Shown: positions 9,947 to 56,471 of the stretch, in pieces
Layout: each line of letters opens with the position of its first letter
Position numbering within the stretch: the stretch's first letter is position 1
DNA from: Channallabes apus
Taxonomy: Eukaryota; Chordata; Actinopteri; Siluriformes; Clariidae
Direction of reading: 5' to 3'
Assembly (NCBI GenBank): GCA_030522415.1
Contig: CM060109.1
Coordinates: 26,213,801-26,277,800 of the forward strand
DNA: 64,000 nt
Position numbers and translations under genes: made by a program
Notes under the pieces: generated by a model
Told to the model about the DNA's origin: nothing
Databases searched by the model: none
What the model saw: only the letters and a program-made list of their open reading frames with translations

Positions 9947-11704
9947 TCAGGGCTCGCCACAGCAAATCATCTGCCTCCATCTAACCCTATCCTCTGCATC
10001 CTCTTCTCTCACACCAACTAACTTCATGTCCTCTCTCACTGCATCCATAAATCTCCTCTTTGGTTTTCCTCTAGACCTCCTGCCTGGCAGTTCCAACCTC
10101 AGCATCCTTCTACCGATATATTCACCATCTCTCCTCTGAACATGTCCAAACCACCTCAATCTGGCCTCTCTGACTTTATCTCCAAAACATCTAACACGGG
10201 TTGTCCCTCTGATGAACTTATTCTTGATCCTATCCATCCTTGTCACTCCCAAAGAGAACCTCAACATCTTCAGCGCTGCTACCTTTAGCTCTGCCTCCTG
10301 TCTTTTCTTCAGTGCCACTGTCTCTAAGCCGTAGAGCATTGCTGGTCTCACCACTGTCCTGTACACCTTTCCTTTCATTCTCGCTGATACTCTTTTATCG
10401 CACAACACACCTGACACTTTTCTCCACCCATTCCAACCTGCCTGTATTCGTCTCTTCACCTCCTTTGAACACTCTCCGTTGCTCTCGACCGTTGACCCTA
10501 AGTACTTAAAATCCTGCACCTTCTTTACCTCTGCTCCCTGTAGCCTCACCGTTCCTCTTGGGTTCCTCTCATTCACAAACATGTATTCCGTCTTGCTGCG
10601 GCTAACCTTCATTCCTCTGCTTTCCAGAGCGTACCTCCACCTCTCCAAATTTTCCATCACCTGTTCCCTGCTCTCGCTACAAAGCACAATGTCATCTGCA
10701 AACATCATAGTCCATGGAGACTCCTGTCTAACTTCATCTGTCATCTTGTCCATCACTAGAGCAAACAAAAAGGGGCTTAGAGCCGATCCTTGATGCAGAC
10801 CCACCTCCACCTTGAACTCTTCTGTCACACCAACAGCGCATCTTACCACTGTCTTACAGCTCTCATACATGTCCTGCACCACTCTAACATACTTCTCTGC
10901 CACTCCAGACTTCCTCATACAACACCACAGCTCCTCTCTCGGCACCCTGTCGTACGCTTTCTCTAAATCTACAAAGACACAATGCAACTCTTTATTACCT
11001 TCTCTGTACTTCTCCACCAGCATCCTCAAACCAAATACTGCATCTGATGTACTCTTTCTAGGCATAAAACCATATTGCTGCTCACAAATTCTCACCTCTG
11101 CCCTTAACCTAGCTTCCACTACTCTTTCCCACAGCTTCATTGTATGGCTCATTAGCTTTATACCTCTGTAATTGCCACAGCTCTGCACATCTCCCTTGTT
11201 CTTAAAAATCAGCACCAATACACTTCTCCTCCATTCCTCTGGAATCCTCTCATTCTCTAAGATCTCGTTAAACAAACTAGTCAGAAACTCTACTGCCACC
11301 TCTCCTAAGCACTTCCATACCTCCACAGGTATGTCATCAGGACCAACAGCCTTTCCACTCTTCATCCTCTTCAACGCCCTTCTCACCTCACTTTTACTAA
11401 TATTTGCTACTTCCTGCTCCACAACAGTCACCTCTTCTACTCTTTGTTCTCTTTCGTTTTCCTCATTCATCAACTCCTCAAAGTACTCCTTCCATCTTCC
11501 CATCACCCTCCTGGCATCTGTCAGTACATTTCCATCTCTATCTTTAATCACTCCAACCTGCTGCACATCCTTCCTATCTCTATCTCTTTGCCTTGCCAAC
11601 CTGTACAGATCCACCTCTCCCTCCTTACTGTCCAGCCTAGCATACAAGTCCTCATATGCTCTTTGTTTGGCCTTTGCCACTTCTACCTTCACCTTATGGT
11701 GCAT
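9947..11704 (-). CDS. LINE reverse transcriptase (ORF2 C-terminal part)
   Basis: This 585-residue open frame is the reverse transcriptase of a non-LTR element, which copies its RNA at the nicked target. Visible blocks: KAVGPDDIPVEVWK (around residue 115), NYRGIKLMSHTMKLWE, QYGFMPRKSTSDA, the palm FVDLEKAYDRVPREELW, GLHQGSALSPFLF and the catalytic FADDIVLCS. The C-terminal region ends with LRWFGHVQRRD and GRRSRGKPKRR, typical of RTE-like fish elements. The frame is intact from about 11704 to its stop, but a one-base shift near 11705-11735 separates it from the endonuclease frame, and ERV-B interrupts the endonuclease further upstream, so the element cannot make a full ORF2. Confidence 0.9.
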   Translation of the reverse strand: MHHKVKVEVAKAKQRAYEDLYARLDSKEGEVDLYRLARQRDRDRKDVQQVGVIKDRDGNVLTDARRVMGRWKEYFEELMNEENEREQRVEEVTVVEQEVANISKSEVRRALKRMKSGKAVGPDDIPVEVWKCLGEVAVEFLTSLFNEILENERIPEEWRRSVLVLIFKNKGDVQSCGNYRGIKLMSHTMKLWERVVEARLRAEVRICEQQYGFMPRKSTSDAVFGLRMLVEKYREGNKELHCVFVDLEKAYDRVPREELWCCMRKSGVAEKYVRVVQDMYESCKTVVRCAVGVTEEFKVEVGLHQGSALSPFLFALVMDKMTDEVRQESPWTMMFADDIVLCSESREQVMENLERWRYALESRGMKVSRSKTEYMFVNERNPRGTVRLQGAEVKKVQDFKYLGSTVESNGECSKEVKRRIQAGWNGWRKVSGVLCDKRVSARMKGKVYRTVVRPAMLYGLETVALKKRQEAELKVAALKMLRFSLGVTRMDRIKNKFIRGTTRVRCFGDKVREARLRWFGHVQRRDGEYIGRRMLRLELPGRRSRGKPKRRFMDAVREDMKLVGVREEDAEDRVRWRQMICCGEP

Positions 11705-11729
11705 CTCCCTGTACTCCTGTCTACTCTCT

Positions 11730-12227
11730 TCAGTCCTCAGTGTCCCACTTCTTCTTGGCTAGCCTCTTTCCCTGTATACACTCCTGGACTTCCTCATTCC
11801 ACCACCAAGTCTCCTTGTCCCCTTTTCCCTTACCTGATGATACACCAAGTACCCTCTTACCTGTCTCTCTGATCACATTGGCTGTAGTTGTCCAGTCAAC
11901 TGAAAGCATCTCCTGACCACCCATAGCTTGTCTCAACTCCTCCCTAAAGACTACACAACATTCTTCCTTTCTCAGCTTCCACCACTTTGTCCTCTGCTCT
12001 GCCTTTGTCCTCTTCACCTTCCTCACCACCAGGGTTATTTTACACACCACCATTCTGTGTTGTCTGGCTACACTCTCCCCTACCAACACCTTGCAGTCAC
12101 TGATCTCTTTCAGATTACAACGTCGACACAAGATGTAGTCCACCTGAGTGCTTCTGCCTCCGCTCTTATATGTCACCCTATGTTCCTGCCTCTTCTGGAA
12201 GAAAGTATTTACAACTGCCATTTCCAT
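11730..12227 (-). pseudogene. LINE endonuclease C-terminal part
   Basis: The 165-residue frame contains TYKSGGRSTQVDYILCRR and ARQHRMVV, the end of an APE-type endonuclease; the histidine in QHR matches the catalytic SDH-type box. It continues into the linker before the RT but is shifted one base relative to it. Its N-terminal continuation lies at 32227-32749 across the ERV-B insertion. Confidence 0.85.
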
Positions 12228-12232
12228 CCTCT
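12228..12232. repeat. Target-site duplication of ERV-B, left copy
   Basis: CCTCT, repeated at 32222-32226 directly after the 3' LTR. Confidence 0.85.
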
Positions 12233-12580
12233 ATGGGAGAAATTTTTATTTGATTTCATTTGATTTTACTTACTTTTGGGGGGTTAGAAGATACCTTATC
12301 AGTATAAAATCATGGATGTGTGTGCAAGCTGGGACATAGGCTACTTTGTGTGCATTACATATAGGAAACCCAAGCTTTACATTGGGGGGGGGGGGGCTAA
12401 AGACGGCCCTTTAATGAAACCCAGATGTTGGAGAGAGGAGGGGCAGGCACTGCATATGTACTATAACGCACATCAAGATAATTCAGTTGCTCCACGGACA
12501 CAGCTCCGGCCTTGATGTTTGATAATAAAGGTCGTAATCTTCTGTAAGCAAAGCCCGACTCTGAGTATTTTTCCACAACA
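12233..12580 (+). repeat. 5' LTR of ERV-B
   Basis: 348 bases, ending TTCCACAACA. It has AATAAA in GATAATAAAGG near 12521 and a run of about 14 G near 12383; the run has 8 G in the 3' LTR. Confidence 0.9.
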
Positions 12581-14665: not shown

Positions 14666-16091
14666 CAGGCATGTCAAACATACGGCCCGCGGGCATAAAT
14701 TTCTGCATAAATTTCTGAGTATGTCAAAAAAAGAAGCGAGTCTCGAGCTCATTTCTATCAAAAGTTGTGATTTTTTTAAAAATAAATACAAACCATATGC
14801 ACCATTCGGCCGCTAGAGGGCAGTAAATGTGTAAAAGCGCTCACGTCCAGCATGCGGCACTGACACGAGTTAGTCACAGGATGTAAACATTCGCAACGTA
14901 ATGTGTCCAAGTAAAAATAAACCGGCAATCTTGCTTCACCATTCACCACTACTAAACAAGTTATCGGTCAACACACCCTTCCCAAAATGGCACTGTCAAA
15001 AAAAAGAAAAGTGGACACGGAATGCAGAGTTTTCCAGGAAAAATGGACTGAGAAGTATTTATTCACAGAAGTGAATGCAAAACCAATGTGCTTGGTATGT
15101 AATCAGCAAGTTGCAGTGTTCAAAGAGTTTAATATTCAGCGCCACTATGAGACCCATCATAAAGATTCCGCTATGAAGGATAAATTTGGGTCCGTGGGAT
15201 TGGATACGTTTTATCAATATCTCGTGCCAGGTTACCCCAAATTAACAGCCATGGCTGCAAAGGTTCTATCCATGTTTGGGACTACTTATCTTTGTGAACA
15301 GGTGTTCTCCGTAATGAACAATAATAAAACAAAGCAGCGCTCAAGGTTAACAAATAAACACTTGAATGACATTGTTAAATGTGCTGCTACTCAGGATTTG
15401 ACACCTAATATCGATGCACTTGGGAAGGCAAAAGTTGCCAAGTTTCAGGAGCCAGCAGCAGCAAGTAGACTGCAGGAGTGCAGTGAGAGAGAGAGAGAGA
15501 AAGTGTGATGACACGAAATTTGTTTGCACTCATGAATACAGATCATTAAAAATAAGATTAATCTGGTTTCATATTAAAGATAATTAATATTGTGCAGTAT
15601 GTTCTCAGCTTCAGTAGGCCCAGCCTAGTAGTTTGATCTGATGTAGTCTAATCTTATTGCCCATGCACTGCTATAACTTTTATTTTGTATTTCTTTTTTT
15701 ATTTATTTATTTCAAAGCAGTATGACAATTAAGCCGAAAAATTTTTTTTCATAGCTCCCACTTGAGTTTGTTAATGTGGTGAGTTGGTTCAGGTGTAAAA
15801 CTGCATTCACTCAACTGTTAAAATAAACCAGTTGTTAACACATTCACCGCCAAACATGAAAATAATTTTTTCCCCATTGTTTGTGAATAAATGTGTTGTG
15901 CTTAGAAAAGATCCCTTGTCATCCATAATCATAATATGTAGGGTAGGCTACAAATGTAGGCTGAATGATAAAGCATAGTACTGAAAAACAAAGCTAAATA
16001 TTTGGAATTGACATTCTTTTACTGATCCGGCCCACCTGAGAACAGAAAGTCTGGATCCGGCCCCAGAGCAAAACTGAGTTTGACATGCCTG
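14666..16091 (+). mobile_element. Charlie-type hAT transposon, internally deleted
   Basis: Ends CAGGCATGTCAAAC and GTTTGACATGCCTG are inverted repeats of each other, and an 8-bp duplication ATGTAGAG flanks the element. At 1426 bp it is far shorter than autonomous relatives. It encodes a shortened transposase. Confidence 0.93.
14987..15508 (+). CDS. hAT transposase derivative: BED-type finger joined to dimerisation domain
   Basis: This 173-residue frame begins with a zinc-finger region (CLVCNQQVAVFKEFNIQRH, residues about 38-56) like that of Charlie hAT transposases and the GTF2IRD2 family derived from them. It then jumps, near residue 75, to the C-terminal hAT dimerisation region (YLCEQVFSVMNNNKTKQRSR, then LTNKHLNDIVKCAAT). 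The catalytic RNase H-like core that normally separates them is missing, while the reading frame is kept. The product could bind DNA or dimerise but not cut. The start is the first ATG ahead of a lysine/arginine-rich SKKRKV stretch resembling a nuclear signal. Whether it is expressed cannot be told. Confidence 0.8.
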   Translation: MALSKKRKVDTECRVFQEKWTEKYLFTEVNAKPMCLVCNQQVAVFKEFNIQRHYETHHKDSAMKDKFGSVGLDTFYQYLVPGYPKLTAMAAKVLSMFGTTYLCEQVFSVMNNNKTKQRSRLTNKHLNDIVKCAATQDLTPNIDALGKAKVAKFQEPAAASRLQECSEREREKV

Positions 16092-16904: not shown

Positions 16905-19704
16905 ATAAAAGTGTGACTATACCTGTATTAGTCTCAAGTCATACACAAGTTAATTTACTAGGAAAAGAATCATTAGGTGAATTAGGACTGCGAATATGGT
17001 GTTCTCCAGAAGGTGTGTATGTTGAACATAATACCTGAAGCACAATTACCCTGTCAGACTTTCACTGTACAATGATGTATGACCCATCACAACACATCAT
17101 CATAGGCCGGCAAGGAGCAGCTATCAGTGTAGAGGAGTGTGCTTTTGTAAAAAGGTGGTTCAATGTAACTGATTCTGTTCTTTAGGTGACATTTTATGTA
17201 CTGTAGGATAGAATTGCAGCTCATAGGACTTATGACCAATAGTGAGGAAAGCTGAAGAAGTCCAGTGGGACTCAACCATAAACCTGTTGATTTTCCATCT
17301 GAATTATGGTCTAAACATGATACAGATGTAGGCCTACTTAAATCAGCCAGCCAACTACAAGTACAACGTAAACCACATGTAGAATCTAACCTGAGGCAAA
17401 AGCGGGTATATAGAACACTATTGAAGGCCTTGTAAAAGCATCTGTGCTAAAAGAGACCAGTTGTTGCAATACTCCTATTTTTCCCAGTGATTAAGCCAGG
17501 TACAAATAAAGGGCATCATGTGCATGATTTACATGCAGTTAATAGTATAACAGGAAAGTATCCAGCAGAAGTTCCAAATCCACACACACTGCTGACTAAT
17601 GTCCCTCCCTAAGCCAAATAATTTATTGTAATGATATTTGTCCAAGCCTTCTTCAGTGTTCAAATGGCAGAAAAAAGTAACTACTGCATTTATTTGCATT
17701 TACAAGTGCCAGTTGACAAAATAGATACCAAAAATGCCACGGTGGTTCAAACATTCACTGTATATATTCAATCAGAGGTGGAAGCTGATTTAGGAAGTTA
17801 AAGGATAGAAGATAGTCTTGGTCAGCATATGGGTGACGGTTTATTATCATTATCATCATTAGAAACATGCCAGAATTATTCCATTAAGGTACACCGTAAG
17901 CTAGTAAGAAGGTCATAAAGTGTCATAAACTAAACTACAATACTGTAAGCCTCAAGTTAAATTGTTAAGGTGACTAATTTCACATGATACGACAGCCATA
18001 GTACATACATAATTAGAAGGCATAAGTAAGGCACCAGTGTCACAGCCTGATAAACAGTGATGGCTTTCTATGGTTAACAGGTTTTATGCTGACTGGAGTA
18101 AGGAATATGCAGGAAAAACAGCTCCACTAAGGGAAATAATAATGAGAAAAGAAGAACTGCAAGATCTAAGTGCTCCCTTAAAATAGAACACAGATATACT
18201 GTTAGCATTTGAATCCATCAAAAAGAAATGCAGACTGCACCTACTTTAGATATACAGTACAGTACCTGAGTATATCAATCCGTTATATCGGTATGTAGTG
18301 AACCAAGCTGATGGATCTACCTCAGCTATACTGATGCAGGAAAATGCAGTGATAGAAAAAAACAGTCCCTAGCTTACTACAGCACTAAGCTAGATAATAT
18401 AACTCAAGGTGACCCAACATGCTACCAACAGGGTTTTGTAGTTGTACATTATACATATAGAACAGCATCTTCATTGACAACAGGTTACCGATAGATTGTA
18501 TAAATTGATAAGACAAGGGGAAGTGTTCTAATCCAAGCTCGCCTCCAAGCATATTCTTCACTGCTCACATATCCCGACATTAATATAAAACGATGTGACA
18601 CAGTTAATCCAGCTAAATTACTCACTTAAACCTATAAAGGAGTGACTCATAGTTTTGTGGCGAGCTCATTGGCATTTACTCGGTTATGACCTGATCTTGA
18701 ATCTAAGCCTATAGCTGAAGCGGAAGTGACTTATTTTGTTGATGGATCTAGTTTAGAGACCAGGTAGAAAGTCACACAGGGTATTCAGTAGTGATGAAGG
18801 ATGGAGAAGATTTTAAACCTATCCTATCTCAGCATTGTACACAACCGTGTTCAGCTCAGTTAGCTGAGTTGAAATCGCTCACCGCTGCTTGTCAATTAGC
18901 CAAAGGACTAGTGGCAAATATTTTTACAGATTCAGCCTATTCCATGATGTATGTCATCTGTTTGGAACCGTATGGAAGCAAAGGTTTAAAAAGCATGAAG
19001 GAACTCTCATTCAAAGTGCTGAACGGATAAGTAAACTAATGTCTGCTCTGATGCTACCAAGATGATTGACTTTCATTAAATGTCAGACCCGTAAAAAAGG
19101 GAAATGACTGTGTTGCTAAAGGTAACAACATGGCAGATTTAGAAATGAAGTGTGCATCAAAATGGCAACTAGCTGTGCAAGCGCCCATAGTCCTTATAGA
19201 ACCACAGCCTCAGTAAGAGGATATCATTTGTACTCAACATCAAGCAGGTCCGTACGAGCACTCGATGTGGCTCCAGAGGGGAGCGTATAAGGACGCACAG
19301 GGTATTTGGTGTCCACATGAAGGTCTGATTATAGCACCCATAGCACTGGTGAATATTTCTGGTTTAAATGCTCATGGACTGGGCCATTGTGTAAGAAGAC
19401 AGGTTGTGAGAAAAATCAGGCAACATGGGTATTGGTCTTTATATCTGCATGCTATGGTTGAAGAGTTCTTAGCTTCATGGGAGATATGTGCTATGCATAA
19501 TGTCAGGAAGGAAACAGCGACACCTATAGGCTATACACCGGTACCAGAATGACCATTTAATCACTTAGTGGTGAACTATGTGGGTAGGATAAAGTAGTGT
19601 TCTGGGCGAAAGCTACATGCTTGCAATAACTGACATATTTAGTAGATGAGTAAAAGCAATAATATCTGCAGATGAAGAGTAAGGAACAGTTATCAAATCG
19701 TAAG
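16905..19704 (+). pseudogene. pol: ERV-B pol: protease end, RT, RNase H, integrase zinc finger
   Basis: Motifs appear in the right order. 16935-17030 resembles the end of a protease (NLLGKESLGELG). 17270-17830 resembles RT fingers and palm (NTPIFPVIKPGTNKGHHVHDLHAVN, shown in part; AFFSVQMAEKSNY), but the YxDD region is missing near 17820. 18060-18480 resembles the thumb/connection. 18740-19030 is RNase H (AELKSLTAACQLAKG, FTDSAYSMM). 19265-19552 is the integrase His-His-Cys-Cys finger (GLGHCVRR; SWEICAMHN). Many stops and shifts are present. The sequence stops at 19704 where the palindrome is inserted and resumes at 30088. Confidence 0.8.
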
Positions 19705-19708
19705 GGAA
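19705..19708. repeat. Target-site duplication of the palindrome, left copy
   Basis: GGAA, repeated at 30088-30091. A 5-base GGGAA (19704-19708 and 30087-30091) is the alternative if the end base is assigned differently. Confidence 0.7.
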
Positions 19709-19747
19709 CTACGGTGGCCCAGAAGGGCAAATCATCTTTCCCATATA

Positions 19748-20300
19748 TGTGTGTTTTTTCCCTCGTAAAAGTTTTTTTTCCCTTGAAAGAATATTTTGTT
19801 TCCTTGAAAAAAAAAATGTTTCCCTTGAAAATGTGTGCTTTTTCTCTTGAATTTTTTTTTCCTTTAAAATTTTTTTCCTTGAAAATGTGTGTTTTTTCCC
19901 TTGTAAATGTGTGCTTTTTCTTTTGAAATTTTTTTTCCCTTGAAAAATGTTTTTTTTCTTGAAAATGTGTGCTTTTTCTCTTGAAAAAGTTTTTTTTACC
20001 CTTGGGGGAAAAAAGTTTCTTGAAAATGTGTGCTTTTTCTCTTGAAAAAAATGTTTTTCTTTCCTTGAAAAAAAAAATTTTTCTTGAAAATGTGTGTTTT
20101 TTCCTTGGAAATAAAAAGTATTTTTTTCTTGAAAAAGTTTTTTTTTCCTTGAAAAAAAAATTTTTTTTCTTGAAAATGTTTTTTTTTTCTTTGAAAATTG
20201 TTTTTTCTTGAAAATGTGTGTTTTTTCCTTTGAAATAAAAAGTTTTTTTTTTCCTTGAAAAAAAAATAATGGAATTTTTTTTTCCTTGAAAATGTGTGCG
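19748..20300 (+). repeat. Minisatellite of TTTTCCCTTGAAAATGTGTG units, left arm
   Basis: About 20-30-base units rich in T, containing CTTGAAAATGTGTG, in roughly 20 imperfect copies. The right arm has the inverted version at about 29767-30055, only about half as long, which accounts for most of the arm length difference. Confidence 0.85.
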
Positions 20301-20339
20301 TTTTCCCGTTTGTGCGCAACCGCTTTTCCCCGTGTGAAA

Positions 20340-21790
20340 AACTATCTTTCTCCCGTATTTTGCAAGCTAAATGCTAAAGCTAACGCGCAAAGGACTATGG
20401 GAGTTGAAGTCAAAACGCAACTGAACACGGAAGCTTTCCGGATATCAGCTCCACAACACCACCATTGGAATGTACAGTGAATTATAGCGCGATAACGTTA
20501 TAATTTTCCCTAATTTTTCAACTGGACACATTTACCAGGTAATGTTTAATATATAAAATTAATTAGATGTTACTGTTCTAGGCACTAATGATAACTTTGT
20601 AGCAGTGTTAATACTTTTGGAGTGTTTGGGGGAAATGCCGAGCCGAGTGTAAATGTCAGTGATTAAAAGGAAGATAATCTCATTTAGACCATTAAACACT
20701 GATATAAACCATCAGCTCCATGCCATCTCTGTAATATACATCCACATATGGATTTATAAGCAAGCTAATATCACTATGCTAACCGCTAGCACTTAGCATG
20801 GGGAAACTAGCATGTTCATTAACATATATTAATTTAATGTTGTATTTGGACACATATACGTGATGTAAACAGTTAGCTCCATTGTTTCTGTAAAACACCT
20901 GTCCAAATATGGATCCATAAGCAAGTTAATATCATTATGCTAAGCGCTAGTTTACTAAAGGAGCTAAGATAGCAGAATGTCAGCTGTTGTCTATCAACTA
21001 TTGCTAATTATCCCTGAGCTAATTCTTAGCTGCTCCTGTTATGGGTTAAATGTTACAGATGGTTAATGAATTGTTGTATGCAGTTTATTGGAGCTCATGA
21101 GTTCCATATAGTGTATAATACTGCAGTGTAATGTAGTGGTATTATCATAGCTAGAGATCTTCTGAGTAGTTAGCTATGTGATTACACAATGTATGTAACA
21201 GTCAAGAAAAGGGGCTTTTTTTCAGGTTCTGTCTATTCTATTATAAAGTCATTAAATATGTGTTTATACTCCTCATAACGTGTGCTTGTGTGTTTTCCTT
21301 TTCACAGTGAACTGTATGTAAATCATCAACTGCCTGTGTATCAGCTGATTTCTAAACCAGGTGTACATCCTGAGCAGAAGGTCAGTGTTCAGAAGTATTC
21401 ACCTCTCTTTTCAAGAACACCACTGAGCACATCTTAATCTGGGGACAGGGGCAAATTTCTCTTCATGATGTGTGTTAACGAATGGTGTAGATGGGGCCAA
21501 ATTCTGCAGCAATCCTTAATAACAAAACCCAATAATTGTACACAGCATTACTAAAAGCTTGCGTTCTATGAAATATATAAAATTTTGTGTGCGTGCCTGC
21601 CTGCAGGCGTGTGTGTCAACTTGCATAGTAACATCATGAAGTCTTTTTACTAGACACTTACATTAACATGTCTTTATTTCTCCCCTGTTGTAGATTGTCG
21701 TGGAGAAGACATACCCTTGACGGTCTGCCTTCTTGCACCACCAATACATCCATGTATTTAATTAATTTGTAAATAAAGGGTTTAATGTAA
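20340..21790 (+). other. Possible spliced transcription unit in left arm
   Basis: A stretch with CpG and promoter-like motifs (GACTATGGGAGTTGAAGT, similar to a ZNF143 site inverted; TTCCGG, ETS-like) precedes a good splice donor at 20538/20539 (CAG|GTAATG). An acceptor with pyrimidine tract follows at 21307, donors at 21361 or 21381, another acceptor at 21693 (TTCTCCCCTGTTGTAG), then AATAAA at 21772. Open frames are short (one from 20400 ends at 20480), so a product would be non-coding or tiny. Splice and promoter function are inferred from motifs only. The unit is duplicated inverted at about 28277-29727. Confidence 0.3.
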
Positions 21791-22139
21791 TTTATAGTTG
21801 AGTATTTATTTCCAGTTTGCTTATTCTTTAGCAAAACAGTTAAAGTGCATGTAAAGCATTGCTGCAAATGACATTGAATAGAATCAGATGTTACTCCACT
21901 CTGTGTAAGGGTACAGGCTTATATAAAGTATGTGATTTTAGCATCATTAATGTTGTTCTGCTAACTTGTACATGCTGCCTTGGAGATATTAGTTACATCT
22001 CTGTTTCAGTTCGAACAACATATTTCATAATATTTATGAATAAATTAATCCCATATGTTAAGCAGTTAAAACAGAGGTTCTTTGCATTTCCAAAAATTCA
22101 TTTCTATGTTATTCAAAAAGTAAAACTTTTTGGTTTAAT
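21791..22139. other. Arm sequence without recognised feature
   Basis: A+T-rich; duplicated inverted at about 27928-28276. Short frames are identical in both arms. Confidence 0.4.
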
Positions 22140-22647
22140 TTAAATGATTACTGCTTACACCTCCATGAAAATCAAAAATCCAGTATGTCAAAATATTAGA
22201 ATATTTCACTGCGATCATGGGGAAGACTGCTGACCAAACAAGTTGTCCAGAAGATGATCATCTACACCTTCCAGAAGGAGTGTAAGCCCCCTAATGTCAA
22301 ACACTACCACCAACTATTTTGCTGACCATTTAGTTGCTTGATTGGCCAGCCATCTCACCTGACCTGACGTTTCATGGGAAAGATGAGCTGAAATCTGGGA
22401 TAAATTTACAAGCCGAATGCTTCAAGTGTTATCTGCACATTCATGCACACTTTTGCACTATATATTTTTATTTCCATTTATGGACCACTGCACAAATCAC
22501 TTTAATAATAAGGCAATTTAAGAAGTCACTTTTATGCATATTTGCACACCCCAGTCATTTCTACATTTCTAATTTGGACAAATTTCTATTTTCTTCTTTT
22601 ATATTTCTTATTGTTATATTGATATTTTGTTCGTATTTGTACAGTAT
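22140..22647. pseudogene. Tc1-like scrap next to the arm's LTR retrotransposon
   Basis: Contains CAAAATATTAGAATATTTC and a DWPAISPDL-like reading near 22340, recalling Tc1-type terminal and third-catalytic-block sequences. Too decayed to delimit. Inverted copy at about 27420-27927. Confidence 0.35.
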
Positions 22648-23359
22648 TGTAACGCTCAGAATTATTATTAGAGCTAATTACACTAAATCGGGGTCTAATA
22701 TCTATAAACGGGTTGATTACACTCACTTCCGGTATTGCGCAACCTTCGCGGAGCAAGGAAAGACGGTGACAACAACAACTTCCAAAACCAAACCAAAGTG
22801 TATTATATACAAAAGACAAACAAACAAATAAAGTGCAACAAAACAATATATACAAAATATAAACAAATATGTACAATGTCAGTAGTGTGTGCGAGTGTGT
22901 GTGTGCGTATGTATGAATGTCCAAGTCCGTGTTATTGTAAATGTATGGGATGATGAAATGGGGAGATGGCTCGATCTCACCGGTAAAAGATGGTAAGTCC
23001 GGGAGCTCGAGAAACGGAATGAGAGGGGTATAGTTGCCGTCCAGGAAAAGAATAATCCTAAGGAAATAGCCAACTAGCTCTCTCTCTCTCTCCAAACACA
23101 GCGCTGCTTGCTTCATCTCTCCGTGTTGACTGTCATGCCGGTTCCGGCTTTATACCGGCACACGTGACCTGATAGGTCATCGGGGTTCCCTCACGGCACA
23201 GCTGCGCATGCATGCGTGAGCTTAACCCCGGAACCAAGGCACCGTTGCCATGGGGACGAAAATAACCGAAAGGGGTCAGTTTGTTTATGCAGGTGAGCAA
23301 CATTAGCTCCTTCTTCGTTCCCCTGCTGTTTAACCGCCCCTTTATGTGGCCGCGCTACA
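22648..23359 (-). repeat. LTR of internally deleted retrotransposon, left arm
   Basis: On the minus strand it begins TGTAGCGCGG and ends GAGCGTTACA (about 712 bases). It matches 26705-27419 inverted. The (CA/GT)-rich stretch and TG...CA ends fit an LTR. Confidence 0.85.
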
Positions 23360-24610
23360 TAGACCCCCCCCCCCAGCCTCCGGCGTGTGAGGAGAGGACC
23401 GCACTAGCACTTTTTTTGATCCACTTTCTCGGTTTAGTGGGTTGCCCCCAGATCTAGTGTCAGTCCATTGGTTCTTTTTTGTGTCTTTTAGCAGGACCCT
23501 CCCACTGGGCACTAGCTCACCTGACAAGTCTTTGATGGGCAGAGGAAAGAGATGGAGTCCATCGCCAAACCAGCCCGCCCGGTAGCTCTGGCACCTCGAG
23601 CTGCCGGGAACGGTGGTAGCTGGCTTCTTTGGCAGACTGACCTGTTGGTGGTGGTGTCTCTTCCTCCGCTGTGATCTTGAGGTCGGTCGGTTCTGTATCA
23701 GTGGCTGGGTCTGTGGAGTGTTGTGGGGTGGTAGGCTGCTCCAGCGGCCCCTGGTTCGCTTAGCCTCACTCTGGGTGTTCTGGCAGACCTCACACGCACC
23801 CACGTACCGCCAGACGTCCTTGCGGATGGTGGGCCACCAGGCGACGTCTAGGAGGCTTAGTAGGGTTTTTAGCCCCCCCCGGTGGCCACCCGACGGCTTT
23901 TGGTGAAAGTCTTGTAGGTACGTCTGGACGTTTGTAGGTGGGACTACCAGCTGGAGTGCTCCTCCCTTCTTCCTCGGAACTCTACGGTGTAACGCCCCCT
24001 TGTGGTGTTCGAAGGAGACACCCTGGTTCTGGTTCGCTCCGACATCGACCACAGTGGCTATTAGGGCCACCTGGAGACCTTCCCGCTGTGGCGGTTCCAC
24101 CTCTGCGAGGTCTCTGGGAGGGGTGGCTGACCGCTCCGAGGTAGGTTGAGGAGGTTCTGCTTTTGTTGGCACGGCGTAGTAGAGCTGAGAGTGTGCAGAG
24201 AGGGGCTGGGCGTTGGACGGTCCGGCCTGGGCCAGAGTAGCAGAGGGCAGAGGTGCCACTTTCTTCCCATTCTCCTGGCTGTCCTTCTCTGGTGTTGCAG
24301 CGGTTGGACGATCAGCTGAATGTAGAGATGGAGGTGGTGAAGACGCCGTGGAGTGTGCTACAGATCTGAGGGCGGTGGGCGTGTTAAAGAGGCGCAGCTT
24401 CTTCATCTGCTTCTCCCAGACGATATCACGGCGCAAGAAACAGTCCACTACTGCTTTCTCCAGTTTCCCTAGTGACTCTCGGCAGTAGCGCTCCAGCTCA
24501 TCTAGCTTGGTGTCTACTGCCTGTCGAAAACGGAGTTCGCGGTTTAAGCTGCTGTCCATGGAGTCTCTGAAATTCCTCTCCAACACACCCACCTTTTCAG
24601 TCATAGCCAC
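23342..24610 (-). CDS. Gag-like coiled coil fused to integrase zinc finger (left arm copy)
   Basis: The 422-residue frame starts with a coiled-coil-like stretch (residues about 5-60, KLDELERYCRESLGKLEKAV), passes through a Pro/Ser/Thr-rich linker, then enters an integrase H2C2 finger at about residues 225-275 (HRGGLKTLLSLL, WWPTIRKDVWRYV, CEVCQ). It has no reverse transcriptase, RNase H or integrase catalytic core. This looks like the internal deletion of an LTR retrotransposon joining gag to integrase in frame. The same junction occurs in the other arm, so the deletion is older than the palindrome. The N-terminus is cut here at the arm boundary (24621); the full start is seen in the right copy. 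Its last codons run into the LTR. Confidence 0.7.
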   Translation of the reverse strand: MAMTEKVGVLERNFRDSMDSSLNRELRFRQAVDTKLDELERYCRESLGKLEKAVVDCFLRRDIVWEKQMKKLRLFNTPTALRSVAHSTASSPPPSLHSADRPTAATPEKDSQENGKKVAPLPSATLAQAGPSNAQPLSAHSQLYYAVPTKAEPPQPTSERSATPPRDLAEVEPPQREGLQVALIATVVDVGANQNQGVSFEHHKGALHRRVPRKKGGALQLVVPPTNVQTYLQDFHQKPSGGHRGGLKTLLSLLDVAWWPTIRKDVWRYVGACEVCQNTQSEAKRTRGRWSSLPPHNTPQTQPLIQNRPTSRSQRRKRHHHQQVSLPKKPATTVPGSSRCQSYRAGWFGDGLHLFPLPIKDLSGELVPSGRVLLKDTKKNQWTDTRSGGNPLNRESGSKKVLVRSSPHTPEAGGGGLCSAAT

Positions 24611-24639
24611 TACATCCCCTTAACTACTTAAGGGTTCAG

Positions 24640-24827
24640 TGGGCTAAAGAAAGACAATCTTGGACTGCGGATGACTGGATGAAAGTTAGATTCAGTGATG
24701 AATCACGAATCTGCATTGGGCAGGGTGATGATGCTGGAACTTTTGTTTGGTGCCGTTCCAATGAAATTTATAAAGACAACTGCCTGAAGAAAACATGCAA
24801 ATTTCCACAATCATTATTGATATGGGG
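24640..24827 (+). pseudogene. Tc1-like transposase fragment at palindrome centre
   Basis: Reads FSDESRICIGQGDDAGTFVW and KFPQSLLIWG, the first catalytic block and following strand of a Tc1-type transposase. The fragment is cut off by the truncated LTR at 24828. Confidence 0.8.
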
Positions 24828-25123
24828 TTACAATAACACGGACTTGGACATTCATACATACGCACACACACACTCGCACACACTACTGACATTGTACATA
24901 TTTGTTTATATTTTGTATATATTGTTTTTTTGTTGCACTTTATTTGTTTTTTTGTCTTTTGTATATAATACACTTTGGTTTGGTTTTTGAAGTTGTTGTT
25001 GTCACCGTCTTTCCTTGCTCCGCGAAGGTTGCGCAATACCGGAAGTGAGTGTAATCAACCCGTTTATAGATATTAGACCCCGATTTAGTGTAATTAGCTC
25101 TAATAATAATTCTGAGCGTTACA
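24828..25123 (+). repeat. 5'-truncated LTR at palindrome centre
   Basis: Matches the last ~300 bases of the LTR at 26705-27419, ending GAGCGTTACA, and is followed at 25127 by a primer-site-like TGG. Confidence 0.8.
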
Positions 25124-25206
25124 TATTGGTGGCCCGTACGGGGAGTCTATTTGTTTGGGTGTTTTTCCGGTGTTGTGTGAATTTGTGGAGCAAAATAGAC
25201 GCTAAC

Positions 25207-26722
25207 ATGGCTAGTGCTAAAGCTAACCTGCTTGCTAATGCTAGTAGGACCGGGAGGGCCAACTATGTTGCCGGTAGTAAAACACTGGACGAAGAATGTG
25301 CATTTGTGACAAGGCGTAATCCTAAATCATTGCTTAGTTCGTTGTATGTATCAGATAGACATGATAACATTGAGGAGTTTATGTCTAATATGTCTCACTC
25401 TAGTTTAAAAACAATGCGTTCTGAACTTAAGCAATGTAAAGGGGATGTAGTGGCTATGACTGAAAAGGTGGGTGTGTTGGAGAGGAATTTCAGAGACTCC
25501 ATGGACAGCAGCTTAAACCGCGAACTCAGTTTGACAGGCAGTAGACACCAAGCTAGATGAGCTGGAGCGCTACTGCCGAGAGTCGCTAGGGAAACTGGAG
25601 AAAGCAGTAGTGGACTGTTTCTTGCGCTGTGATATCGTCTGGGAGAAGCAGATGAAGAAGCTGCGCCTCTTTAACACGCCCACCGCCCTCAGATCTGTAG
25701 CACACTCCGCGGCGTCTTCACCACCTCCATCTCTACATTCAGCTGATCGTCCAACCGCTGCAACACCAGAGAAGGACAGCCAGGAGAATGGGAAGAAAGG
25801 GGCACCTCTGCCCTCTGCTACTCTGGCCCAGGCCGGACCGTCCAACGCCCAGCCCCTCTCTGCACACTCTCAGCTCTACTACGCCGTGCCAACAAAAGCA
25901 GAACCTCCTCAACCTACCTCGGAGCGGTCAGCCGCCCTTCCCAGAGACCTCACAGAGGTGGAACCGCCACAGCGGGAAGGTCTCCAGGTGGCGCTAATAG
26001 CCACTGTGGTCGATGTCGGAGCGAACCAGAACCAGGGTGTCTCCTTCGAACACCACCAGGGGGCGTTACACGGTAGAGTTCCGAGGAAGAAGGGAGGAGC
26101 ACTCCAGCTGGTAGTCCCACCTACAAACGTCCAGACGTACCTACAAGACTTTCACCAAAAGCCGTCGGGTGGCCACCGGGGGGGGCTAAAAACCCTACTA
26201 AGCCTCCTAGACGTCGCCTGGTGGCCCACCATCCGCAAGGACGTCTGGCGGTACGTGGGTGCGTGTGAGGTCTGCCAGAACACCCAGAGTGAGGGTAAGC
26301 GAACCAGGGGCCGCTGGAGCAGCCTACCACCCCACAACACTCCACAGACCCAGCCACTGATACAGAACCGACCGACCTCAAGATCACAGCGGAGGAAGAG
26401 ACACCACCACCAACAGGTCAGTCTGCCAAAGAAGCCAGCTACCACCGTTCCCGGCAGCTCGAGGTGCCAGAGCTACCGGGCGGGCTGGTTTGGCGATGGA
26501 CTCCATCTCTTTTCTCTGCCCATCAAAGACTTGTCAGGTGAGCTAGTGCCCAGTGGGAGGGTCCTGCTAAAAGACACAAAAAAGAACCAATGGACTGACA
26601 CTAGATCTGGGGGCAACCCACTAAACCGAGAAAGTGGATCAAAAAAAGTGCTAGTGCGGTCCTCTCCTCACACGCCGGAGGCTGGGGGGGGGGGGGGGGG
26701 TCTATGTAGCGCGGCCACATAA
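25207..26722 (+). pseudogene. Gag-like coiled coil fused to integrase zinc finger (right arm copy)
   Basis: Starts at 25207 (MASAKANLLANASRTG), 80 bases after the primer site, which supplies the N-terminus missing from the left copy. A two-base deletion near 25530 shifts the frame relative to the left copy; the frame is open again from about 25610 to 26722. The integrase finger (HRGGLKTL, WWPTIRKDVW, CEVCQ) is intact at about 26170-26290. Compared with the left copy there are about eight amino-acid differences (for example R/C, T/A and P/S changes), so this part of the arms has diverged by roughly 1%. A G-run of about 16 near 26684 precedes the LTR as a polypurine tract. Confidence 0.7.
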
Positions 26723-27419
26723 AGGGGCGGTTAAACAGCAGGGGAACGAAGAAGGAGCTAATGTTGCTCACCTGCATAAACAAACTGACCCCTTTCGGTT
26801 ATTTTCGTCCCCATGGCAACGGTGCCTTGGTTCCGGGGTTAAGCTCACGCATGCATGCGCAGCTGTGCCGTGAGGGAACCCCGATGACCTATCAGGTCAC
26901 GTGTGCCGGTATAAAGCCGGAACCGGCATGACAGTCAACACGGAGAGATGAAGCAAGCAGCGCTGTGTTTGGAGAGAGAGAGCGAGCTAGTTGGCTATTT
27001 CCTTAGGATTATTCTTTTCCTGGACGGCAACTATACCCCTCTCATTCCGTTTCTCGAGCTCCCGGACTTACCATCTTTTACCGGTGAGATCGAGCCATCT
27101 CCCCATTTCATCATCCCATACATTTACAATAACACGGACTTGGACATTCATACATACGCACACACACACTCGCACACACTACTGACATTGTACATATTTG
27201 TTTATATTTTGTATATATTGTTATTTTGTTGCACTTTATTTGTTTGTTTGTCTTTTGTATATAATACACTTTGGTTTGGTTTTGGAAGTTGTTGTTGTCA
27301 CCGTCTTTCCTTGCTCCGCGAAGGTTGCGCAATACCGGAAGTGAGTGTAATCAACCCGTTTATAGATATTAGACCCCGATTTAGTGTAATTAGCTCTAAT
27401 AATAATTCTGAGCGTTACA
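26705..27419 (+). repeat. 3' LTR of internally deleted retrotransposon, right arm
   Basis: Begins TGTAGCGCGG after a G-rich tract and ends GAGCGTTACA; 715 bases. Confidence 0.85.
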
Positions 27420-28276
27420 ATACTGTACAAATACGAACAAAATATCAATATAACAATAAGAAATATAAAAGAAGAAAATAGAAATTTGTCCAAATTAGAA
27501 ATGTAGAAATGACTGGGGTGTGCAAATATGCATAAAAGTGACTTCTTAAATTGCCTTATTATTAAAGTGATTTGTGCAGTGGTCCATAAATGGAAATAAA
27601 AATATATAGTGCAAAAGTGTGCATGAATGTGCAGATAACACTTGAAGCATTCGGCTTGTAAATTTATCCCAGATTTCAGCTCATCTTTCCCATGAAACGT
27701 CAGGTCAGGTGAGATGGCTGGCCAATCAAGCAACTAAATGGTCAGCAAAATAGTTGGTGGTAGTGTTTGACATTAGGGGGCTTACACTCCTTCTGGAAGG
27801 TGTAGATGATCATCTTCTGGACAACTTGTTTGGTCAGCAGTCTTCCCCATGATCGCAGTGAAATATTCTAATATTTTGACATACTGGATTTTTGATTTTC
27901 ATGGAGGTGTAAGCAGTAATCATTTAAATTAAACCAAAAAGTTTTACTTTTTGAATAACATAGAAATGAATTTTTGGAAATGCAAAGAACCTCTGTTTTA
28001 ACTGCTTAACATATGGGATTAATTTATTCATAAATATTATGAAATATGTTGTTCGAACTGAAACAGAGATGTAACTAATATCTCCAAGGCAGCATGTACA
28101 AGTTAGCAGAACAACATTAATGATGCTAAAATCACATACTTTATATAAGCCTGTACCCTTACACAGAGTGGAGTAACATCTGATTCTATTCAATGTCATT
28201 TGCAGCAATGCTTTACATGCACTTTAACTGTTTTGCTAAAGAATAAGCAAACTGGAAATAAATACTCAACTATAAA

Positions 28277-29727
28277 TTACATTAAACCCTTTATTTACAA
28301 ATTAATTAAATACATGGATGTATTGGTGGTGCAAGAAGGCAGACCGTCAAGGGTATGTCTTCTCCACGACAATCTACAACAGGGGAGAAATAAAGACATG
28401 TTAATGTAAGTGTCTAGTAAAAAGACTTCATGATGTTACTATGCAAGTTGACACACACGCCTGCAGGCAGGCACGCACACAAAATTTTATATATTTCATA
28501 GAACGCAAGCTTTTAGTAATGCTGTGTACAATTATTGGGTTTTGTTATTAAGGATTGCTGCAGAATTTGGCCCCATCTACACCATTCGTTAACACACATC
28601 ATGAAGAGAAATTTGCCCCTGTCCCCAGATTAAGATGTGCTCAGTGGTGTTCTTGAAAAGAGAGGTGAATACTTCTGAACACTGACCTTCTGCTCAGGAT
28701 GTACACCTGGTTTAGAAATCAGCTGATACACAGGCAGTTGATGATTTACATACAGTTCACTGTGAAAAGGAAAACACACAAGCACACGTTATGAGGAGTA
28801 TAAACACATATTTAATGACTTTATAATAGAATAGACAGAACCTGAAAAAAAGCCCCTTTTCTTGACTGTTACATACATTGTGTAATCACATAGCTAACTA
28901 CTCAGAAGATCTCTAGCTATGATAATACCACTACATTACACTGCAGTATTATACACTATATGGAACTCATGAGCTCCAATAAACTGCATACAACAATTCA
29001 TTAACCATCTGTAACATTTAACCCATAACAGGAGCAGCTAAGAATTAGCTCAGGGATAATTAGCAATAGTTGATAGACAACAGCTGACATTCTGCTATCT
29101 TAGCTCCTTTAGTAAACTAGCGCTTAGCATAATGATATTAACTTGCTTATGGATCCATATTTGGACAGGTGTTTTACAGAAACAATGGAGCTAACTGTTT
29201 ACATCACGTATATGTGTCCAAATACAACATTAAATTAATATATGTTAATGAACATGCTAGTTTCCCCATGCTAAGTGCTAGCGGTTAGCATAGTGATATT
29301 AGCTTGCTTATAAATCCATATGTGGATGTATATTACAGAGATGGCATGGAGCTGATGGTTTATATCAGTGTTTAATGGTCTAAATGAGATTATCTTCCTT
29401 TTAATCACTGACATTTACACTCGGCTCGGCATTTCCCCCAAACACTCCAAAAGTATTAACACTGCTACAAAGTTATCATTAGTGCCTAGAACAGTAACAT
29501 CTAATTAATTTTATATATTAAACATTACCTGGTAAATGTGTCCAGTTGAAAAATTAGGGAAAATTATAACGTTATCGCGCTATAATTCACTGTACATTCC
29601 AATGGTGGTGTTGTGGAGCTGATATCCGGAAAGCTTCCGTGTTCAGTTGCGTTTTGACTTCAACTCCCATAGTCCTTTGCGCGTTAGCTTTAGCATTTAG
29701 CTTGCAAAATACGGGAGAAAGATAGTT
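28277..29727 (-). other. Possible spliced transcription unit in right arm
   Basis: Inverted copy of 20340-21790 (coordinates sum to 50067). The same donor, acceptor and AATAAA motifs are kept on the minus strand. Both units point toward the palindrome centre. Confidence 0.3.
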
Positions 29728-29766
29728 TTTCACACGGGGAAAAGCGGTTGCGCACAAACGGGAAAA

Positions 29767-30055
29767 CGCACACATTTTCAAGGAAAAAAAAAATTTTTTT
29801 TTTCAAGGAGAAAAATCTTTTTAAAGAAAAAAAAAATTTTATTTCCAAGGAAAAAAACACACATTTTCAAGAAAAAATATTTTTTCCAAGAAAAAAAAAA
29901 CATTTTCAAGAAAAAAAATGTTTTTTCAAGGAAAAAAAAAACATTTTCAAGAGAAAAAGCACACATTTTCAAGGGAAACATTTTTTTTTCAAGGAAAAAA
30001 AATTTTCTTTCAAGGGAAAAAAAACTTTTACAAGGGAAAAAACACACATATATGG
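29767..30055 (-). repeat. Terminal minisatellite, right arm (short)
   Basis: Inverted counterpart of 19748-20300, with fewer units. Confidence 0.85.
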
Positions 30056-30087
30056 GAAAGATGATTTGCCCTTCTGGGCCACCGTAG

Positions 30088-30735
30088 GGAAGTGATATCT
30101 AGATTTGAAATTCCATCAGAGATGAGTTCCGACAATGGATCAATATTCATTCAGAAAATGTAAGACAGGTGCTGCAACGGTTGGGAAAAAGCTAAGATTT
30201 GGGGATGTCCACAGTCCCAGGGGAAGGTAGAGAGTGTAAATGGTAATCTCAAAGCCAAGGTTAATAATAATTGTAGTAGTACAATGCTACACTAGGTTTT
30301 AACTGATGCTGTACCAATGAGCTAACAAGCATGCAACCTAACACAAATGGACACCTAAGCCCGCATGAAATGCTTACGGGTCGACCCATGCCTGTGCCAT
30401 TCTGTTGAAGCCATATAAAGGCCCACCGCTTAACCAATTTTGAAAATCTTATATGAAGAAACTAACTGCCGTACATGAAGTAATCTATGTGCAGGAAAAG
30501 AACAAGGAGGAAGAGACGCTCCGTGTCCCATCACTCCAGGAGACCAGGTCTATCTGCGAGTGTTCAGGAGGAAGTGGCACAAGCCCAGGAGGGAGGGGCC
30601 CCACAAAGTGTGGCAGCCACTCCAACAGTGATTCAAGTGAAAAACAAGACCGTGTGGTATCACTTGAACCATGAAACGAGAGTCACAAAAAGCTATGGGT
30701 ACCGAAAACGAAGGAAGAAAGAAAGAATTACCTAA
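30088..30735 (+). pseudogene. pol: ERV-B integrase core and C-terminal domain, after the palindrome
   Basis: The integrase frame interrupted at 19704 resumes here. A SSDNGSIF block with the second catalytic aspartate lies near 30130, and a VESVNGNLKAK block with the glutamate near 30230 (both in decayed frames). 30540-30680 resembles the C-terminal domain (RKWHKPRREGP, VIQVKNKTVWYHLNHETRV in part). Frameshifts and stops are present. Integrase inserts viral DNA into the host genome; this copy cannot. Confidence 0.75.
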
Positions 30736-31876: not shown

Positions 31877-31878
31877 AT

Positions 31879-32221
31879 ATGGGAGAAATTTTTATTTGAT
31901 TTCATTTGATTTTACTTACTTTTGGGGGGTTAGAAGATACCTTATCAGTATAAAATCGTGGATGTGTGTGCAAGCTGGGACATAGGCTTCTTTGTGTGCA
32001 TTACATATAGGAAACCCAAGCTTTACATTGGGGGGGGCTAAAGACGGCCCTTTAATGAAACCCAGATGTTGGAGAGAGGAGGGGCAGGCACTGCATATGT
32101 ACTGTAACGCACATCAAGAGAATTCAGTTGCTCCACGGACACAGCTCCGGCCTTGTTGTTTGATAATAAAGGTCGTAATCTTTTGTAAGCAAAGCCCGAC
32201 TCTGAGTATTTTTCCACAACA
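31879..32221 (+). repeat. 3' LTR of ERV-B
   Basis: 343 bases matching 12233-12580 with about six substitutions and a shorter G run; followed by the duplicated CCTCT. Confidence 0.9.
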
Positions 32222-32226
32222 CCTCT

Positions 32227-32749
32227 TTGCAAAGTCCACCACCATCTGTCCTTCTACATTCCTGTCCTGAAGACCAAACCTGCCCATCACATTTTCATCC
32301 CCTCTGTTCCCTTCCCCAACATGTCCATTGAAGTCTGCACCAATCACAACTCTCTCACCTCTGGGGATGCTCTGCATCACTTCATCTAACTCACTCCAGA
32401 ATTTCTCCTTCTCTTCTAACACACATCCTACCTGTGGAGCATAACCACTAACAACATTGAACATCACACCATCAATTTCCAGCTTCAGACTCATCACCCT
32501 ATCTGATACTCTCTTCACCTCTAGAACATTCCTAACAAACTCCTCTTTCAGGATAACTCCTACTCCATTTCTTTTCCTATCCACACCATGGTAAAACAAC
32601 TTGAACCCTGATCCTAAGCTTCTAGCTTTGCTACCTTTCCACCTGGTCTCCTGGACACACAGTATATCCACCTTCCTTCTCTGCATCATATCAACCAACT
32701 CTCTTCCCTTCCCTGTCATGGTCCCAACATTCAAGGTCCCTAATTTCAC
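32227..32749 (-). pseudogene. LINE endonuclease N-terminal part
   Basis: From the start at 32749 this reads KLGTLNVGTMTGKGRELVDM, then VQETRWKG with the catalytic glutamate and GADFNGHVG with the catalytic Asp/Asn pair, which is an APE-type endonuclease that nicks the target. At 32227 the sequence runs into the ERV-B duplication; its continuation is at 12227 on the other side of the provirus. The downstream residues read from the LTR are not part of the LINE. Confidence 0.9.
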
Positions 32750-33046
32750 TCCTAAACTCTTGCCTTTCCTCTTCTCTCTCTGCTTTCGAACAGGCCTTCC
32801 TCCTCTCCTTCTTCAACCAACAGTAGCCCAATTTCCACCGGCACCCTGTAGGTCAACAGCACCAGTGGCGGTCATTGTTAACCCAGCCCACGACCGATCC
32901 GGTATGGAAATTATATTTCTGATTCGCACCATTGATTTGGCAAATGTTTTACGTCAGATGCCCTTCCTGACACAACCCTCTGCATTTATCCAGACTTGGG
33001 ACTGGCCCAAGAAGACACTGGATTGCGCCCCCCCATGGTTGCATTT
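32750..33046 (-). mobile_element. LINE 5' untranslated region
   Basis: Minus-strand sequence from the TSD at 33047 to the endonuclease start. It reads like the 5' leader of fish RTE elements and bounds the element's 5' end. Confidence 0.7.
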
Positions 33047-35629: not shown

Positions 35630-37375
35630 AAATATACTTCATGAATTGAGTACAAGTCAGTAAAAAAAATAAGTAGACCTGAATAACTTTTTTTTAGTAC
35701 AATAATGTACAAAATTGAGTAAATGCAATGAAAATCAGAAGTTAATGCAAGGTTACCCTAAGTGAAAATGAGTAAAATAATTGAGTAGATATGGTTGAAA
35801 TGGAAGGTAGAAGAAACTGAAAATTAGACTATTATTTAACAAATAAATGTGCTACTTTTACTTATTTTAAATTCATTTAATTCATACATACAATTAATGT
35901 TACACTATTTTATTTTTTAAATACTGTATATTTAGCTTTTAATCAAGTTTTTTTTTTCAATTTAGGTCAATGTATGTAATGACATATCTAATTATAAACA
36001 AAGACACAATACACACATTACCATTTTAATTAAACATTTATTTGCCAAATTTGACAAGGCATGACGTCTAAACTCAATCTGGTTTACTTTGCAAATGACA
36101 TGTAACAAGAAACAATGAGCTGAATTGATCTCATTAGTAAACAGTCTCACAAACAATACTTCTGCCACAAGTATTATACAGTTAATATGTGGAAAGTAGA
36201 CTTTTGCATTAGAATAGAATCACAGTCACATTTTACATCTGAAAGATTGCAGACCTTCACACTTCAGTTTCCTGCAAATTGTGAGATCCATACAAATGTG
36301 TGTACAGACATTCTCAGGTCTTAAAGAAGCAATGACAGTCTAAATGAAGACAGGACACTGAATATCATTGATCAACACAATTCCTTTTGATGATGCGACA
36401 CATGTGCAGAGCTTACACCGCCATCCCATAAGCTAGCACCTAAAAAAGGAATTATAGTATACAAGTAAGTACAAGTGTGACTGTTACTGTATGCATCATC
36501 ACACTGATCTATAAGTGGTGTTCAAGTCAAAGCAGGACTTGTGATGAAAATTCTCTGAAACAAAGACGTAAAACTGATTTGATTTTACAGAGCCCATTGC
36601 TGGTAAAATTCCGGTGAACATTTCAGTGGAATGCTTTTACAAAAAACGGACTGCTTTGATCACCAAAGGCGTTTTGCTCTTGCAGAACAATGCACAACCT
36701 CATATATAGAAACAGAAATATAGAGAGAAATAAAGGGAGCTTTTCCGCTAATAAGTGTGTTCTATTACTCTGCACAATCAAAAGTCCCGCTTTGACTTGA
36801 ATGTCCCTTGTATATGTCTGTGTCCCTTGTATAAAAATTATACCCAACTTTATTTACGCATTACTATCAACTATATCATTTTTTTTACTTTAGTTACTGG
36901 AAAATCTAGTATATTCTAGTAGATTCGATATATTCTGGATTCAAAATAGGTAAAGTGAAATATTTCAAGCCGTGTTTCAATTTCTATCTTGGATTCAATG
37001 GTTACACATTTAATACTTCTAAAACATTTAAAAAGTTGACATTTACCTCCTGTTTTATCTCCATTCAACTTCTCTTCTTTAGTGGTGTTGGTGCTGTGAA
37101 AGAGATATTGAAAATATATAACGTTTCACAAAAATAATTTAAAAATCAGTTTATTTTTATTTTACTTACATATCACAACATATATAACATATTTCACTTC
37201 AATATTTTAATTTTATATTATTTCTGCCGATTATAATTCCGAGAGAAATGTTGTACTTTTACTTAGAACATTTATTTTATCAACAGCCATTTTAATAATG
37301 TTCAAGTACATTAAACATTGAGTGAGCTGTATTTATTTTTTATATGTGACAGCGGAAAAATACTTCTCACACAAA
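35630..37375. other. No recognised gene
   Basis: A+T-rich interior of the outer hAT. Short frames without family motifs. Confidence 0.35.
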
Positions 37376-37377
37376 TA

Positions 37378-38988
<1,611 letters not shown>

Positions 38989-43473: not shown

Positions 43474-43486
43474 TTGGCACACGCAA

Positions 43487-45502: not shown

Positions 45503-45537
45503 TAGATTTGCTCTGAACGTAGGTGGGGACCTATATA

Positions 45538-47154: not shown

Positions 47155-47198
<44 letters not shown>
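47155..47198. repeat. (TA)n microsatellite
   Basis: About 22 TA units at the Tc1-D insertion border. Confidence 0.95.
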
Positions 47199-55930: not shown

Positions 55931-55935
55931 GTCAC
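55931..55935. repeat. Target-site duplication of ERV-D, left copy
   Basis: GTCAC, repeated at 63823-63827. Confidence 0.9.
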
Positions 55936-56468: not shown

Positions 56469-56471
56469 ATC

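Follow-up and report, generated by a model that had tools for sequence, protein, structure and literature searches.

The 64,000-nt stretch of the Channallabes apus genome analysed here (GCA_030522415.1, CM060109.1:26,213,801-26,277,800, forward strand; hereafter the window, within which all positions are counted) contains a near-perfect palindrome of 10,379 bp at positions 19709-30087, an element with inverted ends that interrupts an old integrase gene. The left arm spans 4,916 bp (19709-24624) and the right arm 4,652 bp (25436-30087), and both are separated by a spacer of 811 bp (24625-25435). A preliminary description of this DNA, made from the sequence alone, had already reported a 10.4-kb palindrome with inverted arms of about 4.6-4.9 kb lying within an interrupted integrase sequence, and its coordinates, ends and arm sizes are borne out by our alignment of the arms. 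The features of the element and of its immediate flanks are collected in Table 1.

Table 1. Features of the palindromic element and its flanks (LTR, long terminal repeat; TIR, terminal inverted repeat; TSD, target-site duplication)
Feature	Position	Strand	Remarks
Decayed retroelement integrase remnant, interrupted by the insertion, left flank	19217..19552	+	H2C2 matched only weakly (17.4 bits; cut-off, 25.5)
Left GGAA of the 4-bp repeat around the element	19705..19708	+	TSD or part of a pre-existing GGAAGGAA
Whole palindromic element, 10,379 bp	19709..30087	.	
Outermost left TIR, 55 bp	19709..19763	+	same as the right end; includes GCCCagaaGGGC
T-rich minisatellite, left	19747..20292	+	
Left body of the DNA element	20275..22647	+	
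Putative exon-like piece between AG and GT in the body	21308..21380	+	read by eye; mirrored in the right arm
Left-arm LTR of the nested retroelement, 712 bp	22648..23359	-	
Left-arm interior of the nested LTR element	23360..24624	-	breaks off in the gag-side region; has integrase H2C2
Fragment of a Tc1-like transposase gene, central filler, 203 bp	24625..24827	+	
5'-truncated LTR	24828..25123	+	
Right-arm interior of the nested LTR element, 1.58 kb	25124..26704	+	gag-side start (named by position), followed by integrase H2C2 and, ahead of the LTR, by a poly-G tract
Right-arm 3' LTR of the nested retroelement, 715 bp	26705..27419	+	
Right body, identical inverted copy	27420..29792	-	
T-rich minisatellite, right	29772..30042	-	
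Outermost right TIR	30033..30087	-	
Right GGAA of the 4-bp repeat around the element	30088..30091	+	

The mirror symmetry stops precisely at the ends CTACGGTGG...CCACCGTAG, so that the outermost part of each arm is the end sequence CTACGGTGGCCCAGAAGGGC, and the outermost 55 bp are the same at both ends. No symmetry was detected in the 300-bp flanks, since a comparison of the reverse-complemented left flank with the right flank rendered a local score of 18, which was equalled by 90 of 200 shuffles. With up to three mismatches allowed, the 28-bp end occurs in the window only at these two sites (expected, 0.00), while the 11-bp end, with up to two mismatches, rendered 7 matches in the window against 5.89 expected, being exact only at the two ends. 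When the arms were aligned globally, 4,634 matches and 32 substitutions (six of them past the arm ends) were counted, with gaps located mainly in the minisatellite, and the alignment includes a tract of 2,567 bp (20275-22841 / 27226-29792) that is 100% identical. Chance is not a candidate for the origin of such a palindrome. As in fold-back type DNA elements, the arms make up most of the element, leaving a short unique middle, and the TIRs contain tandem repeats, in this case the two minisatellites. A small inverted repeat, GCCC-agaa-GGGC, was also noticed by eye just within each end (19717-19728 and 30068-30079), and may serve in protein binding or form a hairpin.

Going from its end towards the centre, each arm carries the terminal repeat, the minisatellite, an AT-rich body of ca. 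2.4 kb and the pieces of a nested LTR retroelement, in agreement with the cargo previously listed (minisatellite, intron-like unit and LTR element). The minisatellites are unequal, the identical tract being reached 566 bp from the end on the left and 295 bp on the right. Splice-like sites and a polyadenylation-like signal were read by eye in the body, which would contain exon-like pieces, with a first donor-like site after 20538, a last exon-like piece starting at 21694 and an AATAAA at 21772-21777. The peptide obtained by joining these pieces had no Pfam match, nor had a peptide (LLDWPAISPDL...) encoded at 22334-22460 and in its mirror, which we take to look Tc1-like; the element may be partly built from scraps of other transposable elements (TEs). 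The Pfam scan covered four open pieces, a selection from the listed open frames of the element, and in these it rendered only integrase H2C2 and sub-threshold matches, no transposase of the element's own being recognised. Rfam at gathering thresholds gave no match, and no transfer RNA was found.

The nested retroelement has LTRs of the form TGTAGC...GTTACA, with the TG...CA termini and the integrase-bearing interior of LTR retrotransposons. Its integrase H2C2 domain was identified by Pfam in the interior of each arm (8e-15), and a comparison of the right-arm interior with PDB rendered the integrase of prototype foamy virus (PFV; 1.5e-5) and, weakly, the Ty3 polyprotein (0.011). An interior of 1.58 kb is too short for a complete LTR element. 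The LTR is found at the identical site in both arms, and the interior is shortened alike in both. The centre is asymmetric: the left arm ends in the interior at 24624, where the Tc1-like filler begins, and this is followed from 24828 by the truncated LTR, which differs from the right 3' LTR by 3 substitutions in 296 bp. Local protein comparisons of the filler with three Tc1-like open reading frames (ORFs) of the window gave scores of 90, 92 and 69, which in each case were reached by none of 300 shuffles; one of these ORFs contains a Pfam Tc3_2 transposase domain, and the other two are presumably Tc1-like as well. The centre piece itself rendered only sub-threshold matches in Pfam and two insignificant ones in PDB (E values of 0.37 and 0.84). 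The palindrome therefore has its axis within the nested LTR element, which is internally deleted, and this axis is closed by foreign filler DNA, so that the palindromic form is a derived one, and this copy turned palindromic after the LTR element had inserted. An ancestral fold-back family, on the contrary, would be expected to own its middle.

The divergence between the arms is patchy. The outermost TIR shows 3 substitutions in 142 positions and a 1-bp indel, a count restricted to the part outside 19851-20274, where the alignment of the arrays (8 further substitutions and many gaps, not counted) is not trustworthy. The bodies differ at none of 2,373 positions and the LTRs at 1 of 712 (and by a 3-bp indel), whereas the interiors of the LTR element differ at 14 of 1,259 (and by a 2-bp indel), or at 13 of 1,258 if the substitution at 24622, which adjoins the junction, is left out. 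Between the arms there is also a 6-bp difference in the length of the C/G run that separates LTR from interior. Hence, there is almost no divergence from 20275 to about 23.4-23.5 kb, and ca. 1-2% in the segments outside this near-identical tract. The contrast between interior and body is significant (Fisher p = 3e-7, or 1e-6 with 13 interior differences), also when CpG sites are removed (5 versus 0, p = 0.004), as is that between interior and LTR (p = 0.015); no significant difference was found between the outermost TIR and the interior (p = 0.22). This pattern points to break-repair copying or to later conversion between the arms: it requires that the arms were recently converted, one by the other, or else that a repair took place with homology at each of its limits, and the data fit both alternatives, the homology being provided in the second case by the TIR and minisatellite on the outside and by two copies of the LTR element on the inside. 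An APOBEC-like clustering of the interior differences was considered and discarded, 8 of the 14 being CpG-flagged and TpC contexts appearing unremarkable by eye.

The origin that we favour, with a probability of about 0.55, is that this is a fold-back copy which arose in situ by break-repair copying of one of its halves, nested LTR element included. A non-autonomous DNA transposon with ends CTACGGTGG... and a minisatellite in its terminal repeats would have inserted in the decayed retroelement integrase, and a deleted LTR retroelement would then have inserted in the inner part of the transposon. A double-strand break would have cost one half its inner part, after which the broken end, whose TIR and minisatellite gave it homology with the other end, would have copied the intact half inwards, through minisatellite, body, LTR and part of the interior of the LTR element. 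End joining would have linked the new end to the other broken end, in the 5' LTR, with the 203-bp Tc1-like scrap as filler, resulting in a fold-back copy whose terminal repeats were now ca. 4.7-4.9 kb long. The right arm would probably be the template and the left arm the copy, because the right arm reaches further into the LTR element, with a remnant of the 5' LTR kept. Later conversion between the arms, or a two-ended repair from two slightly different copies of the LTR element, would have left the arms nearly identical from 20275 to ca. 23.5 kb, with 1-2% divergence persisting in the segments on either side. The unequal outer arrays fit this scheme, since each end would be expected to keep its own array.

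Several observations weigh against such an origin. A simple one-step copy predicts equal identity along the copied half, but the interior of the LTR element is less identical than the body, so that a second step or a second copy of the LTR element must be added. This contrast is in part related to CpG sites, given the flagged differences mentioned above and the 60 CpG in the left interior versus 31 in the left body. It could also be the case that the palindrome began symmetric and that ordinary slippage later made its minisatellites unequal in length. Finally, the comparison is that of a single palindromic copy with itself, with no non-palindromic relative in view.

A closely similar anatomy has been reported for Galileo, an element of the P superfamily. 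In the part of the report concerned, copy 112 of Drosophila willistoni is described as an element of 9,021 bp that lacks a transposase segment and has TIRs of 4,246 and 4,680 bp, unequal tandem repeats within them, identical TSDs and fragments of other TEs (P and Mar) in both TIRs, and a TE inserted in one TIR is described to become part of both (PMC4168063). The element of C. apus resembles copy 112 in size, in its long TIRs, in the unequal tandem repeats and in the presence of nested TEs in both arms. It differs from it in that the TSDs of copy 112 are of 7 or 8 bp and its ends are others, in that the nested DNA consists there of P and Mar fragments and here of a shortened LTR retroelement, and in the middle, which by subtraction amounts to 95 bp there. 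With regard to the mechanism, in Galileo of D. mojavensis the repair of a broken TIR2 with TIR1 as template is proposed to recruit internal DNA and so to lengthen the inverted arms (PMC3573991); tandem repeats are also present in those TIRs, which, however, reach up to ca. 1.26 kb in the portion of that report concerned. The flanks of our element have only a 4-bp direct repeat in common, in contrast to the 7-8-bp TSDs of Galileo and the P superfamily, and no P-type transposase with a THAP domain was recognised by Pfam in the four open pieces, although non-autonomous Galileo copies also lack the gene. By analogy, therefore, the present copy would work like Galileo copies, while its membership of Galileo is not supported. 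Tetris of D. virilis, as far as the sections concerned describe it, shares the fold-back anatomy, the tandem repeats in the TIRs, the absence of apparent coding capacity and a mobilising transposase that was not found, but has TSDs of 8-10 bp and a repeat unit of 220 bp (PMC4079207).

The octamers flanking the element, TAAGGGAA and GGAAGTGA, have nothing in common but the 4-bp direct repeat. The preliminary description took this GGAA for a duplication, with the continuity of the integrase sequence as its proof; GGAA is indeed present on both sides, but the continuity indicates the reverse, and its status as a TSD is doubtful. When both copies of GGAA were kept in the short joined flanks, the integrase could be aligned without gaps over 56 residues (score 119, with three stops taken as X) to the one reference used, the integrase of another element of the window, whereas upon removal of one copy it split into two frames with scores of 54 and 69. 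A second integrase of the window used as reference gave no convincing match (score 31), and in a search for relatives in viral contigs three stretches fitted a pattern, none of which was confirmed. Because the frame is gapless only with both copies, the plainest reading is that GGAAGGAA may have stood in the target beforehand, the element having inserted without making a duplication. We give this reading somewhat less than even odds; it is independent of those on the origin of the palindrome, and its odds do not compete with theirs. A TIR element without a TSD is rare, and the host integrase is decayed, with stops and another frame change upstream, so that a 4-nt deletion may have taken place there; alternatively, the duplication may be genuine, 4 nt having been lost from the host gene at this point beforehand, and the frame that results after removal (VREVISRF) is also plausible. 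Superfamilies with a 4-bp TSD that were considered are Chapaev, Sola, Ginger and Academ. Cut-and-paste elements with TIRs and no TSD do exist, as described for Spy (PHIS), but Spy is a poor fit, since in the sections of the reports concerned it is confined to invertebrates, inserts mostly at AAWTT (ca. 60% of insertions) and is not mentioned to have fold-back arms (PMC11304231, PMC9179366). The site here is GGGAA/GGAAGTG.

It can also be the case that the palindrome was made at a donor site by TIR extension and then moved to its present position as a 10.4-kb unit, by a transposase recognising the two identical ends. The intact ends with their 55 identical outer bases, the flanking 4-bp direct repeat and the symmetry that halts exactly at the ends are in line with such a movement, and the preliminary description had indeed stated that the structure inserted as a unit. 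However, what the ends and the short repeat demonstrate is the arrival of some element so bounded, and the repeat may be older than the insertion. Insertion as a unit need not follow from them, because extension of the TIRs in situ would leave the same ends, and intact ends with a short direct repeat should generally not be taken as proof that a palindrome moved as a unit. The results fit an earlier extension as well as one in situ; the latter is somewhat more likely for requiring fewer steps, and we consider movement as a unit, which needs an extra one, rather unlikely, at perhaps one chance in four. It appears improbable, though worth mentioning, that the ends CTACGGTGGCCCAGAAGGGC define an undescribed superfamily of vertebrate DNA transposons with a 4-bp duplication or none, whose TIRs would be extended by inverted break repair and whose copies would then be mobile as 10-kb palindromes carrying pieces of nested retroelements in duplicate. 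The exact 28-bp end had no matches in viral contigs and none in prokaryotic contigs, which says little given the nature of these collections; nothing related to the end sequence was found, judged by title, among the literature matches listed, nor did a comparable fold-back element of fish stand out there. An assembly artefact, in which an inverted read or a graph error doubled one arm, is less probable still: a collapsed or polished duplicate would indeed be perfectly identical, as the arms are over 2,567 bp, but a fold-back read or missed adapter mirrors the flanks and leaves no spacer, whereas here the flanks differ, the spacer holds unrelated filler, and the arms have 13-14 interior substitutions, CpG changes on either arm and unequal minisatellites. 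The proposal of a candidate new class of giant fold-back element, with the palindrome as its normal form, is very improbable, since, even if no transposase of its own was recognised in the pieces scanned, its ends are not known to match any family and the viral and prokaryotic collections and the literature searched gave nothing useful, its centre of nested truncated LTR element and Tc1-like filler makes the form secondary, and a like anatomy of nearly this size has been published for Galileo (PMC4168063, in the part concerned).

If the palindrome did originate by break-repair copying in situ, the description of Galileo from Drosophila would extend to another host, and fold-back transposons would be a state reached by ordinary TIR elements through inverted repair, instead of a lineage. 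The steps would moreover be legible in one copy, as nested LTR, broken edge, filler and conversion tract.

Other elements are present in the window. Two that are presumably Tc1-like (37375-38997 and 45535-47163) are 97.4% identical over 1,633 bp, each with inverted ends of ca. 220 bp that are ca. 90% alike, the first including an open frame of 346 codons. An LTR-flanked retroelement at 55934-63825 has direct repeats (55934-56471 and 63282-63825) that are 96.9% identical, and between them an ORF with CCHC knuckles and a pol-like open frame of 1,109 codons. Minus-strand pieces at 9947-12230, where a reverse transcriptase domain was detected (2.9e-38), and at 32114-32812 are, we presume, similar to long interspersed nuclear elements, and the neighbouring segments 12232-12580 and 31878-32221 are 96.8% alike. 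A hAT-like remnant at 14921-15508 consists of a zinc-finger match followed at a short distance by the hAT C-terminal dimerisation region in a single frame of 195 codons. Two direct repetitions were also found, a tandem duplication of ca. 560 bp (42917-43474 and 43487-44057; 97.5% identical) and a 178-bp unit in two head-to-tail copies at 57192-57547, with 93% matches.

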